64,000 nt of DNA from Porticoccaceae bacterium (lineage in GTDB: Bacteria > Pseudomonadota > Gammaproteobacteria > Pseudomonadales > Porticoccaceae): the NCBI GenBank assembly GCA_012960115.1, contig DUBX01000037.1, positions 18,404 through 82,403 of the forward strand. The letters run 5' to 3'. The translations under genes were made by a program, and so were the position numbers. The notes beneath the pieces are model-generated. The model saw only the letters and a list, made by a program, of their open reading frames with translations. It had not been told where the DNA came from and did not search any database. Shown in pieces: positions 2,407 through 7,402 of this stretch. Position 1 is the first letter of the stretch; every line of letters starts with the position of its first letter.

Positions 2407-3987
2407 ATGACAGCAGCGAATATTCATAGCCAGAAAATTCTAATTCTGGATTTCGGTTCTCAATACACACAACTCATCGCGCGGCGCGTTCGCGAAATGG
2501 GAGTCTATTGTGAAATTTGGGATTACCAAGTCGACAAAAACTTGTTTCTGGAATTTTCTCCTCAAGGGATCATTTTTTCGGGGAGCCCTGAGTCAGCCAA
2601 TACCAATGAGTCGCCTCGACCGCCGAATTTCTTGTATGAAGCGGGTTTGCCTATATTGGGGATTTGCTATGGCATGCAAACCATGGCGGAGGAATTCGGT
2701 GGGAAGGTTGAAGCATCGTCGAAGTCTGAATTCGGTTTCGCGCAAGTCGATGTTACTAGTAATAATCGTTTGCTGAACGGTATCAAGGACCGCACTAATG
2801 AAGTAGGGCAAGAACAGTTGGACGTTTGGATGAGCCATGGCGATAAAGTCACTGCCGTGCCGCCAAACTTTGAATTAGTGGCTGCCACCGAAAGCGCTCC
2901 CATTGCAGCTATGTGTGATGAGTCACGAAAATTTTATGGGATACAGTTTCATCCTGAAGTGACTCACACGGTGCAAGGACAACTCATTCTCGAGCGTTTC
3001 GTTAAAGAAATTTGCAACTGCGAATCTCTGTGGACATCAGCAAGTATTATTGAAGATGCGATTGCGACCATACGTGCCCGCGTCGGTAGTGAAAAAGTTT
3101 TACTTGGTCTTTCCGGTGGAGTTGATTCATCTGTCGTTGCAGCGCTGCTGCAAAGAGCAATTGGAGATCAGCTTACTTGTGTGTTTGTAGATAACGGTCT
3201 GCTTCGTCTCAATGAAGGCGATCAGGTCATGGCCTCTTTTGCCAAGAACATGGGCGTTAAAGTAATTCGCGCTGACGCAGAGGAATTTTTCCTCTCAAGG
3301 CTTGCTGGCGTTAGTGATCCGGAAGCGAAAAGAAAGATTATCGGCAACACATTTATTGAAATATTCGATGAAGAAGCTTCGAAATTGCAGGATGTTAACT
3401 GGTTAGCTCAAGGAACTATTTATCCAGATGTTATCGAATCCGCTGGTTCAAAAACTGGCAAAGCTCATGTCATAAAATCTCATCACAATGTGGGTGGCCT
3501 ACCAGAAGACATGAAAATGGAGTTAGTGGAGCCACTGCGTGAACTGTTTAAAGACGAAGTGCGCAAAATCGGCTTGGAGTTGGGCTTACCTTATGACATG
3601 GTTTACCGGCATCCATTCCCTGGGCCTGGGCTCGGGGTTCGTGTCTTGGGAGAAGTTAAGAAAGAGTATTGTGACATTCTCAGACTGGCAGACGCGATTT
3701 TCATGGAAGAACTACACAGATCTGATTGTTACAACAAAGTTAGTCAGGCTTTTGCTGTGTTTTTGCCAGTTAAAAGTGTTGGAGTGGTAGGGGATTCACG
3801 TCGTTATTCGTACGTAATTACACTGCGGGCTGTAGAAACGATAGATTTCATGACTGCACGTTGGGCGCGGTTGGAGCCAGAACTGTTAGAAACTATTTCT
3901 AATCGAATTATGAATGAGATAGAGGATGTCTCGCGTGTGGCTTACGATATTTCAAGTAAACCCCCGGCAACTATTGAGTGGGAGTAA
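2407..3987 (+). CDS. guaA: GMP synthase (glutamine-hydrolysing)
   Basis: It converts XMP to GMP using ATP and glutamine. The protein has 526 residues, normal for the family. The class I amidotransferase domain carries Cys87 (GICYGMQ) and His182/Glu184 (FHPEVTH). The ATP pyrophosphatase P-loop SGGVDSS is at 236-242, and the C-terminal dimerisation domain ends in the conserved TIEWE. The last six codons form the first copy of an 18-bp core that recurs three more times downstream. The native gene end has therefore probably been exchanged by site-specific insertion, and it ends GAG-TAA while the downstream copies read GAA-TA(A/G). The protein is intact. Confidence 0.98.
   Translation: MTAANIHSQKILILDFGSQYTQLIARRVREMGVYCEIWDYQVDKNLFLEFSPQGIIFSGSPESANTNESPRPPNFLYEAGLPILGICYGMQTMAEEFGGKVEASSKSEFGFAQVDVTSNNRLLNGIKDRTNEVGQEQLDVWMSHGDKVTAVPPNFELVAATESAPIAAMCDESRKFYGIQFHPEVTHTVQGQLILERFVKEICNCESLWTSASIIEDAIATIRARVGSEKVLLGLSGGVDSSVVAALLQRAIGDQLTCVFVDNGLLRLNEGDQVMASFAKNMGVKVIRADAEEFFLSRLAGVSDPEAKRKIIGNTFIEIFDEEASKLQDVNWLAQGTIYPDVIESAGSKTGKAHVIKSHHNVGGLPEDMKMELVEPLRELFKDEVRKIGLELGLPYDMVYRHPFPGPGLGVRVLGEVKKEYCDILRLADAIFMEELHRSDCYNKVSQAFAVFLPVKSVGVVGDSRRYSYVITLRAVETIDFMTARWARLEPELLETISNRIMNEIEDVSRVAYDISSKPPATIEWE
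3970..3987 (+). repeat. att-like core copy 1, within guaA 3' end
   Basis: ACTATTGAGTGGGAGTAA contains the last guaA codons and the stop. It differs from copies 3 and 4 at one base (GAG instead of GAA). To its right, TGAGTG at 3975-3980 is inverted as CACTCA at 3992-3997 with 11 bp between, which could be a pair of recombinase core arms. The function as an attachment site is inferred from the repeat pattern. Confidence 0.75.
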
Positions 3988-4021
3988 CCGTCACTCATAC
4001 ACAAACACGTTGGCATTCATT

Positions 4022-5149
4022 ATGAAGAAACAAATGAAAAAATATTTAACTGCATTAGTCGGACTTTTGCTTTCAAGTTGTTCTAACCTACAAACAACAA
4101 TTGCTGAAAATGGAATCGAAGTTTCTAATAATGGAATTAACAAAAAACAATCTGAACTTATATTTGATAACACGAAATCATTTCCAAACAATACTCAATT
4201 ATCGCTTGCCTTAATTAGAAATGGGGAAATTGACTTTATTGGAATTGAAAGAACAAATGACACAATAAAGTTGATTGAAAATTATAAGAATGTTTTTGAA
4301 ATCGGTTCTATAACTAAAGTATTTACCGCAACCTTATTATCAAATTTTGTTAATGACCAAAAGCTAAAATTAGATGACAACATCCAAGATTACCTTGATT
4401 TCAAAATCAATTCCGAAAACGATATAACTTTTAAGGAGCTTGCAAATCACACTTCAGGATTTCCGAGATTACCTTCAAATCTGAACCTATTGTACCTATT
4501 GTTTAACCAAGACAATCCTTATAAAGATTACAACAAAGAAAAGCTTGTGGATTATTTAACAAAAAAAGTCAAACTAAATCAAGAACCTGGAATTAAGTAC
4601 GAATACTCTAACCTTGGTGCTGGAATTTTGGGATTTGAATTAGCATCTATTTCCAAGTCATCATATGAATCACTACTTCAAGAGAAAATATTTACAAAAT
4701 ATAAAATGGAAAACTCTACAAGCAAAAGAGAAAATATACAATCTGAACTCGTTAATGGATTAAAACCGAATGGAAAAACAACCTCGAATTGGGACTTTGA
4801 TGTTTTAGCAGGTGGTGGAGCAATTTTGTCTACAGTAGAAGATCTATCAAAATTTGCTTTAGCTCAATTTGACAATGAGAATAATGAATTAACTCTGACT
4901 CAAAAGCCAACATTTAAAGTAAATGACAATATGCAGATAGGACTTGGATGGCATATTTTAAAAACAGAAAACGGTGGAGAACTAATTTGGCATAATGGGG
5001 CAACTGGAGGTTATAGGTCCTCAATGGGTTTAGATATAGAAAATAAAAACGGAATAATTATACTGTCAAATGTTTCTGCATTTAACGAGAAAAGCGAAAA
5101 TATTGACCAATTACTTTTCGAACTGATAGAAACATTGGATGAGAAATAA
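4022..5149 (+). CDS. Lipoprotein serine hydrolase (class C beta-lactamase/DD-peptidase fold)
   Basis: The 375-residue product has a lipoprotein signal with lipobox LSSC at Cys20. Its penicillin-binding fold motifs are S96-I-T-K99 (FEIGSITK), Y195-S-N197 and a late HNG triad in WHNGATGGY. Proteins of this family are usually esterases or peptidases; beta-lactamase activity cannot be assumed. The open frame extends back into guaA, but the ATG at 4022 gives the signal peptide. Codon use is strongly AT-rich (AAA, AAT, GAA, TTA), unlike guaA, and the sequence style resembles Bacteroidota proteins, which suggests transfer. It is the cargo of the first unit after the guaA att core. No good Shine-Dalgarno site is visible. 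Confidence 0.85.
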   Translation: MKKQMKKYLTALVGLLLSSCSNLQTTIAENGIEVSNNGINKKQSELIFDNTKSFPNNTQLSLALIRNGEIDFIGIERTNDTIKLIENYKNVFEIGSITKVFTATLLSNFVNDQKLKLDDNIQDYLDFKINSENDITFKELANHTSGFPRLPSNLNLLYLLFNQDNPYKDYNKEKLVDYLTKKVKLNQEPGIKYEYSNLGAGILGFELASISKSSYESLLQEKIFTKYKMENSTSKRENIQSELVNGLKPNGKTTSNWDFDVLAGGGAILSTVEDLSKFALAQFDNENNELTLTQKPTFKVNDNMQIGLGWHILKTENGGELIWHNGATGGYRSSMGLDIENKNGIIILSNVSAFNEKSENIDQLLFELIETLDEK

Positions 5150-5193
5150 AGGAAGAGCCAACTGTATAAAACCGGCGTCTACCGAAAATTCAG

Positions 5194-5211
5194 ATTAACG
5201 GGTGGGAATAA
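5194..5211 (+). repeat. Degenerate att-like core
   Basis: ATTAACGGGTGGGAATAA matches the 18-bp core at 14 of 18 positions, including an unbroken GTGGGAATAA. It lies 45 bp after the serine hydrolase stop, where a unit boundary would be expected. It may be a decayed or alternative site. Confidence 0.4.
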
Positions 5212-6730: not shown

Positions 6731-7297
6731 ATGAAATTTTCAATACGTTCTCTGTTGCTTACGATGTTAATGTACTTTTGTGTTAGTCATTCCCTAGCGC
6801 AAACTGGCTTAACCGATGACATCTATAGTCAATCCGAATCAATCGCGGATGTCATGAACTACTTTCCAATGGCTAATGGAATAGGCACAGCAGGACAACC
6901 AACACCTGAGCAGTTTGCGCTAATAAAAGCAGCGAAATATTCAGCAGTCATTAACCTAGCAGTTGCTCAATCAGTCAACGCACTACCAAACGAAGCAAAA
7001 ATAGTTACAGATTTAGATATGTCTTATCAGCATATACCTGTGCCCTGGGATGCGCCCACCGCCAGCCACGTAAAAGAATTTTTTGAGACAATGGATATGC
7101 TTACGCAGCAAGCAGATCCAATTCTCGTTCACTGCGCAGCAAACTATCGAGCGTCTGTCTTCACCTATAAATATTTGACGCTCAGACAAGGTTTGTCGAA
7201 AGAGGATGCAGCCACCCCACTACTCAAAGAATGGCTTCCGCAAATGGATGATAATTGGAAAGCAATTATGGCGTTGAGCCTGAACGATATTGAGTAA
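6731..7297 (+). CDS. Secreted protein-tyrosine-phosphatase-like protein
   Basis: The 188-residue product has a signal peptide (about residues 1-23, ending SLAQ) and a dual-specificity-phosphatase-like fold of the DUF442/BLH type. These have an early GTAGQPTPEQF and a loop VHCAANYRAS with Cys135 and Arg140. Only four residues separate Cys and Arg, as in the DUF442 group, against five in classical phosphatases, so activity is unproven. It is the cargo of the third unit and is followed by the conserved tandem GTTACAAAG and dyad block. Confidence 0.75.
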   Translation: MKFSIRSLLLTMLMYFCVSHSLAQTGLTDDIYSQSESIADVMNYFPMANGIGTAGQPTPEQFALIKAAKYSAVINLAVAQSVNALPNEAKIVTDLDMSYQHIPVPWDAPTASHVKEFFETMDMLTQQADPILVHCAANYRASVFTYKYLTLRQGLSKEDAATPLLKEWLPQMDDNWKAIMALSLNDIE

Positions 7298-7313
7298 CGC
7301 CTACCATGAAAAA

Positions 7314-7374
7314 GTTACAAAGTAGTTACAAAGTCGAAAAAATGCCTCTGAAACCCACTATCTATAAGGGTTTC
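7314..7374 (+). repeat. Unit-end block: tandem GTTACAAAG plus dyad
   Basis: GTTACAAAGTA-GTTACAAAGTC at 7314-7335 repeats the arrangement of 5445-5466. It is followed by CCTCTGAAACCC and its partner GGGTTTC (7350-7356 and 7368-7374) around TATAA, as at 6499-6523. The block ends 10 bp before att-like core 4. Confidence 0.65.
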
Positions 7375-7384
7375 AAATTAGGCT

Positions 7385-7402
7385 ACTATTGAGTGGGAAT
7401 AA
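7385..7402 (+). repeat. att-like core copy 4, probable original guaA end
   Basis: ACTATTGAGTGGGAATAA is the last copy, 801 bp after copy 3, and only three bases before the start of a gene with ordinary composition. If the units were inserted at the guaA 3' end, this copy would be the original guaA terminus and the next gene its ancestral neighbour. Confidence 0.75.

Follow-up and report, generated by a model that had tools for sequence, protein, structure and literature searches.

The 3′ end of guaA, the gene for GMP synthase, is entered in a table of the review PMC5704250 as a place of insertion of tyrosine-integrase elements. It is the target of GIsul2 and of the CR2-sul2 unit. In the passages that describe them, three attachment (att) cores part an integrase-bearing part from an integrase-less unit, and the GIsul2 integrase is reported to excise and integrate both the island and the integrase-less unit; GIsul2 is further reported on plasmids (PMC9376610). 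The account of the Methylophilaceae describes fGI-2, an additive flexible genomic island (a definition taken from PMC5217437) with a size of 330 bp to 42 kb, and the Tycheposons of aquatic bacteria, which pair a tyrosine recombinase with cargo at a set location (PMC10872708). The present analysis concerns a stretch of 64,000 nucleotides of contig DUBX01000037.1 from a Porticoccaceae bacterium (the window), in which guaA is followed by a row of small gene units, each closed by a copy of the guaA end. Similar rows occur in genomes of the SAR92 and OM182 groups. A search of the literature by title and start of abstract, with most subscription journals outside its scope, found nothing on guaA cassette arrays in either group.

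The row is a real, mobile-looking cassette system and is classed with the guaA-targeted islands. By analogy, and as far as its description goes, GIsul2 is the nearest experimental precedent. Both show insertion at the guaA 3′ end and a further copy of the core at the opposite end, the core given for GIsul2 (GAGTGGGA) lying within the core found here (ACTATTGAGTGGGARTA), and both have a tyrosine integrase beside the guaA end, although here in relatives and not in the window. They differ in that GIsul2 is described with one unit, whereas the present locus holds an array of single-gene cassettes. fGI-2 resembles it in that recurring copies of the last 20 nucleotides of the target gene mark the variable island; its target, however, is tRNA-Lys, and neither composite site nor integrase figures in its description. 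Tycheposons likewise have a tyrosine recombinase and cargo at one set location, but they are described as tRNA-linked and 4–200 kb in size, whereas here the repeated end is that of guaA and no tRNA is found in the window. Cis-mobilizable elements (CIMEs) likewise place integrase-less units in tandem between att sites; they are explained by the decay of larger conjugative or mobilizable islands, whereas here most small units recur with a single cargo gene.

The best reading is that an array of gene cassettes lies behind guaA, that the repeats are its attachment sites, and that its units are moved, in all likelihood, by guaA-linked tyrosine integrases; a probability of about 0.78 is given to it. 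According to this reading, small and mostly one-gene units are each closed by a composite site made up of direct repeats, a pseudo-palindrome and a guaA-like core. The guaA-linked integrase would recognise this site and the units would circularise. Integrases encoded by other elements would then insert or remove units one after another, acting in trans on those that carry no integrase, with new units entering adjacent to guaA.

The repeated core and its composite site

The 17-bp core ACTATTGAGTGGGARTA occurs exactly, on the + strand, at 3970, 5518, 6584 and 7385. These are its only matches with up to three mismatches in the 64 kb, a number reached in none of 100 dinucleotide shuffles (mean 0.18, maximum 2). 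The initial annotation had reported four direct copies of an 18-bp repeat at these positions, 1548, 1066 and 801 bp apart; positions and spacings are correct and the copies are exact over 17 bp. The core is thus real, but the repeat does not consist of 18 bp alone, since cores 2–4 each close, on the right, a larger site that extends about 75 bp upstream, giving a composite of about 95 bp. The claim that no other part of guaA is duplicated also stands: when guaA DNA was compared with the rest of the window the three core copies were the best matches (17–22 bp, E 0.02–0.3), and no further piece rose above chance level (E 1 or more). The units had been described as AT-rich with one or two genes each, and their GC contents are indeed 0.318, 0.326 and 0.407, against about 0.45 in guaBA. 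All their genes lie on the + strand. Across the source assembly the core, at up to two mismatches, is found in six places: the four in the window, the end of a second guaA on contig C44, and one on C29.

Upstream of the core and reading toward it, a pair of direct repeats of some 11 bp each (AGTTACAAAGT type) is followed, after about 20 bp, by an imperfect palindrome (AAACCC...GGGTTT), and roughly another 12 bp lead to the core. We aligned 32 sites, of which 27 came from SAR92-labelled genomes (including three sites of the window) and five from OM182-type records; over 102 columns the alignment has almost no gaps, and the geometry is near-fixed. By analogy, this pairing of direct repeats and core is reminiscent of the arm-type and core-type sites known from tyrosine recombinases. 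Copies in inverted or head-to-head arrangement are seen at L079:10738-10822, L206:2035-2118 and L200:5241-5397 in the SAR92 genome G003, in G007 and in G038.

Distribution and exchange of units behind guaA

The bare core is too noisy in whole genomes, its pattern giving 113 matches at up to two mismatches against 39 for a reversed control in 50 genomes. A 98-position sequence model of the site, R1, trained on the 32 aligned sites, was therefore used. R1 matched at 47 places in 19 of 50 SAR92 genomes (E ≤ 1e-3), at 30 places in 17 of 390 genomes across the order, six of them SAR92 (E ≤ 1e-5), and, within the OM182 family (that of G362), at 53 places in 27 of 137 genomes (E ≤ 1e-5). The last assignment rests on the G362 family including MED-G28, an OM182 record, the G480 places coinciding with NTJZ01000010.1. 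Recovery is partly by construction; in this last search G480 (MED-G28) and G493 (one genome with NP21) gave the five OM182-type training sites, and 25 of the 27 genomes are therefore independent.

Where the contig allows it to be seen, nearly all the sites lie behind guaA in its orientation, and where tadA is visible too they stand between both genes. Twenty of the 47 SAR92 matches are on the guaA contig, and 19 of these are behind guaA in the same orientation; in the search of the order, 19 of 30 places are on the guaA contig and 18 of these are behind the gene, at 0.3 kb to 64 kb. A site in G021 is 66 kb behind it. In six records without a full site (L142, L150, L152, L163, L178 and L181) the tadA match starts at most about 100 bp past the guaA stop, and in G287, G249 and G343 units stand between guaA and tadA. 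In MED-G28 guaA is followed by units of 344, 803, 1100 and 5005 bp, and in G532:C33, where guaA is intact, the units measure 711, 396, 2220 and 1687 bp; G508:C10 holds a guaA end, six units (2028, 628, 840, 537, 1281 and 1410 bp), tadA and purL, the frames of these three genes being broken as assembled. Arrays are present too in HTCC2207 and in the single-contig genomes G047 and G114. The same place thus varies by gain and loss of cassettes, from an array-less guaA–tadA junction up to arrays of several units. In G048 (C6:613664-613906) a second, partial guaA, comprising the last 81 residues at 75% identity, ends in a core far from the full gene on the same contig.

Neighbouring DNA changes at the core. 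Three SAR92-labelled contigs (G007:C51, G016:C60 and G003:C42) are 99.8–100% identical for 566–1517 bp up to a core, and past it have no DNA match to one another. Beginning at the first base past the core, window unit 1 shares 91% identity with G038:C2 over 1153 bp, the tails differing; the preceding DNA is guaA in the window and unrelated in G038:C2. When 52 guaA ends were compared systematically with 55 sites, 25 guaA-versus-site pairs from different genomes had at least 100 bp of downstream homology. Five that only repeated the next unit of G399 were dropped, and in 15 of the remaining 20 both members become homologous no more than 13 bp from the core and at the same offset.

Individual cassettes recur beside different neighbours. 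Among the open reading frames (ORFs) of 35 chosen array zones, grouped by shared cassette, one that we name thioesterase-like is found in six zones and four distinct contexts at 76–97% identity, and a 288-aa cassette that immediately follows guaA in NP21 lies in G532 between two sites. The protein of window unit 2 recurs in G545 (91%) and that of unit 1 in G038 (86%). Sharing extends across families: SAR92 G048 and G249 have a one-gene unit in common (78% identity in the 317 bp that start at the core), and downstream of guaA the DNA of G343 agrees with that of G362 at 94% over 474 bp, and that of G047 with that of G291 at 82.5% over 1201 bp. With high confidence, the units are mobile at the core, or were so recently.

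The guaA-linked integrases and the possible decay of islands

A divergent family of tyrosine integrases, represented by a 437-aa protein on G007:C51, gives hits in seven of the 50 SAR92 genomes and six of the 390 genomes of the order, two of them already counted, and thus in 11 genomes. In ten the gene comes immediately after a core, that of guaA itself in eight and one of an array in two; the eleventh, in G020, is a fragment. The copies of G041, HTCC2207 and G136 are fragments behind cores, remnants lie near sites in G493 and G538, and the frame of G047 stops before the expected catalytic tyrosine. Of five near-full copies, four exceed the PF00589 cut-off; that of G007 falls below it. A protein search with the G291 integrase returned 1653 relatives at E ≤ 1e-10 (best 120 listed). 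In G287 a 12.4-kb element has its integrase at guaA and a site before tadA. Arrays often have no guaA-linked integrase nearby, which suggests action in trans, and as judged from sequence it is likely that this family moves the units, including those without an integrase of their own.

All five aligned integrases carry Y-S-[LT]-R-H in the tyrosine-recombinase box, the usual form of which is H-x-x-R-H. Mini-integrases of 189 and 192 aa, matching PF00589 over nearly its full length, are encoded near the guaA-linked integrase on the opposite strand in G291 and G362 (L303:6857-7426 and L305:6897-7475), and a serine resolvase (L198:1120-1701) follows the integrase in G007:C51. Plasmid records gave a single match to the guaA-linked integrase, at 26% identity. 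A phage origin was considered and rejected, the G007 copy being unmatched in phage records and no match of the G291 copy being confirmed in viral contigs. Scans of viral contigs with the core pattern yielded 20 and 10 stretches, of which L231 (E 1.7e-5) fits the site profile over nearly its full length and the others in part; the five integrases have no match in these 30 stretches.

The five integrases have no match in the window or in the left part of its contig, and PF00589 has two matches in the source assembly, neither on the window contig, in accord with the initial annotation, which had seen no integrase here. Its further proposal, that integrase-less units were inserted successively at guaA, is borne out in relatives by array-less guaA–tadA junctions, varying numbers of units, swapped neighbours, homology starting at the core and integrases behind guaA cores. 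Neither an invariant gene order among relatives nor a scatter of core copies unrelated to unit borders was found.

Several observations weigh against the cassette reading. For 27 of the 47 SAR92 matches the contig lacks guaA, so a link to the gene cannot be judged there. A weak site match on G003:C56 is inverted relative to guaA, one site of G019 lies inside another contig, and a site of G291 is 650 kb from guaA, though 1.9 kb before tadA. In G291, like transposase-like ORFs lie near guaA and near the site, so that this looks like an inversion of about 650 kb. Orientation is uneven: ORFs of at least 80 aa run 21 with and five against in 25 chosen units of up to 2200 bp, 50 versus 22 over all 34 units and 21 versus six in 24 OM182 units, and three units of HTCC2207 are entirely reversed. 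Five of the 20 guaA-versus-site pairs start elsewhere, two in chromosomal flank and three further in, and the pairs share genomes and are not independent. The window genome, G020 and others have arrays without an intact integrase of the guaA-linked family. Finally, recognition of the repeats by the integrase and excision of the units are steps that we infer from sequence comparison. As a separate observation on G291, its guaA element (L303 and L304) is homologous to that of G047 and seemingly split by the inversion.

The foremost alternative is the accretion of decayed islands, in which the units would be remnants of tandem integrase-bearing islands at guaA that have lost the integrase, as CIMEs do by a decay route described in PMC5704250. 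Integrase-bearing elements do use the same place, the integrase remnants behind cores and near sites noted above are what such decay would leave, and att sites flank integrase-less DNA on both sides. The window itself holds no such remnant. Its three units and many others of 0.3–1.5 kb, however, amount to one cargo gene without an integrase match, and the same small cassettes recur intact beside other neighbours, which is not expected of decay in place. Accretion by decay is accordingly regarded as unlikely.

The window contig and a possible cassette platform

The features of the window are collected in Table 1. The serine hydrolase of unit 1 falls far under all the named beta-lactamase cut-offs shown. 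By eye, a degenerate core-like stretch is seen at 5197-5213, about 50 bp past this gene; a similarly placed second diverged core-like stretch in G038 suggests that unit 1 may once have ended further upstream. At 6468-6600 two sites merge, the left one missing most of its core, as if joined by deletion.

Table 1. guaA, the units behind it and neighbouring features (window positions; GC, guanine plus cytosine fraction)
Feature	Position	Strand	Remarks
guaA, GMP synthase, 526 aa, anchor gene	2407..3987	+	OM182-like; 88.6% identity to L118 (OM182/Pseudohongiella group), ~71-73% to SAR92
Core 1, coding end of guaA	3970..3986	+	
Unit 1, 1548 bp	3987..5534	+	GC 0.318
Serine hydrolase, beta-lactamase/AmpH type (PF00144), probably lipoprotein	4022..5149	+	start 4022 picked by eye; listed ORF from 3926
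Composite site 2: repeats, pseudo-palindrome, core 5518-5534	5437..5534	+	
Unit 2, 1066 bp	5535..6600	+	GC 0.326; 5528-6412 93% identical to OM182-family G545
Membrane protein, 168 aa as listed	5699..6205	+	no Pfam match at E ≤ 0.01; 91% in G545
Helix-turn-helix regulator (PF01381), 68 aa	6207..6413	+	90% in G545, 89% in G503
Partial extra site without full core	6468..6537	+	E 4.7e-4; 6473-6537 100% identical to G530
Composite site 3, right part, core 6584-6600	6531..6600	+	95% over 65 bp to OM182 MED-G28
Unit 3, 801 bp	6601..7401	+	GC 0.407; lineage uncertain
Phosphatase-like protein, 188 aa	6731..7297	+	DSP-type matches slightly below Pfam cut-offs
Composite site 4, core 7385-7401	7305..7401	+	91% to SAR92 G020 site; right 58 bp 86% to OM182-family G503
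DUF1295 membrane protein	7406..8320	+	first gene of SAR92-like right flank
tadA	34783..35241	+	30.8 kb from guaA; directly after guaA in six array-less relatives

The contig changes lineage within the array. From about C37:6550 to guaA it matches OM182-group records (65–76% at the nucleotide level), and the sites of unit 2 match G530, G508, G503 and G532 at 93–100% over 37–65 bp. From 7386 to 17210, the end of the G003 contig, it is 95–97% identical in DNA to SAR92 G003 except for a short gap, and against G007 the right flank is 90–97% identical up to 11608. The second guaA of the source assembly (G000:C44:1229-2800) is 96.4% identical to that of SAR92 G003. These identities indicate that the contig is probably chimeric, with OM182-like DNA extending at least to the end of unit 2 and SAR92-like DNA from 7386 on; an assembly join between 6601 and 7386 is the likeliest reading. 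As the change falls inside the array, the right flank and the three units were perhaps never together in one cell. The cassette system is unaffected by the chimera, being seen also in HTCC2207, G047, G114 and elsewhere.

This change of lineage is one ground for supposing that the variation arises by homologous recombination in ordinary flanking DNA, or by assembly errors, around a functionless core. Repeats provoke such errors, and several contigs of OM182-type metagenome-assembled genomes (L118, L119, L121, L129 and L133) stop at most about 130 bp from guaA, as a repeat that breaks assemblies would cause them to do. Arrays are nevertheless present in HTCC2207, in the two single-contig genomes and on guaA contigs of several families, and homology sets in at the 17-bp core, the sequences across it being unrelated; this explanation is therefore considered improbable.

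In the way it works the array resembles an integron. Integrons are likewise anchored rows of small exchangeable cassettes, each ending in a recombination site, and a true integron with attC sites would account for rows of small co-oriented genes in which a repeated site closes each unit. Inverted repeats are present in individual sites here, but RNAalifold gave no consensus base pair over the 32 sites, the core is the end of guaA, and the integron integrase (TIGR02249) exceeded its cut-off in only one of 31 genomes, and not on the guaA contig. An integron identity is accordingly rejected as barely conceivable. The one genome over the cut-off, SAR92 G011, encodes a real integron integrase (C3:150064-151011, 439 bits), its guaA being on C1. 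Just as little can be said for the repeats as transcription signals, such as terminators, or as a spreading non-coding repeat: they are intergenic and contain a palindrome, but in 3900-8500 terminator-like sites (3 vs 3.0) and promoter-like sites (16 vs 14.9) are at shuffle level, no Rfam family matches in 1-20000, and the core is tied to guaA with homology starting there.

Beyond the reading of the repeats as att sites of a cassette array, a bolder proposal may be put forward tentatively, at somewhat less than even odds. The locus might represent a cassette platform independent of integrons, with a dedicated guaA-specific tyrosine integrase, double-stranded composite sites, uptake of single genes next to guaA, their drift toward tadA, and movement of a shared pool of cassettes from family to family among marine Gammaproteobacteria; the mixed contig would then reflect a cassette near-identical in SAR92 and OM182 members of one sample. 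In practical terms, metagenome assemblies may break or misjoin behind guaA. With the site model and the integrase defined, the origin of single-gene cassettes and the trade in small genes become directly testable. The textbook example of single genes captured and reused as cassettes in an anchored row is the integron. If the proposal is true, bacteria of the ocean would possess an integron-like means of gene capture built from other parts, in which a different enzyme family acts on plain att sites at a housekeeping gene that is universal.

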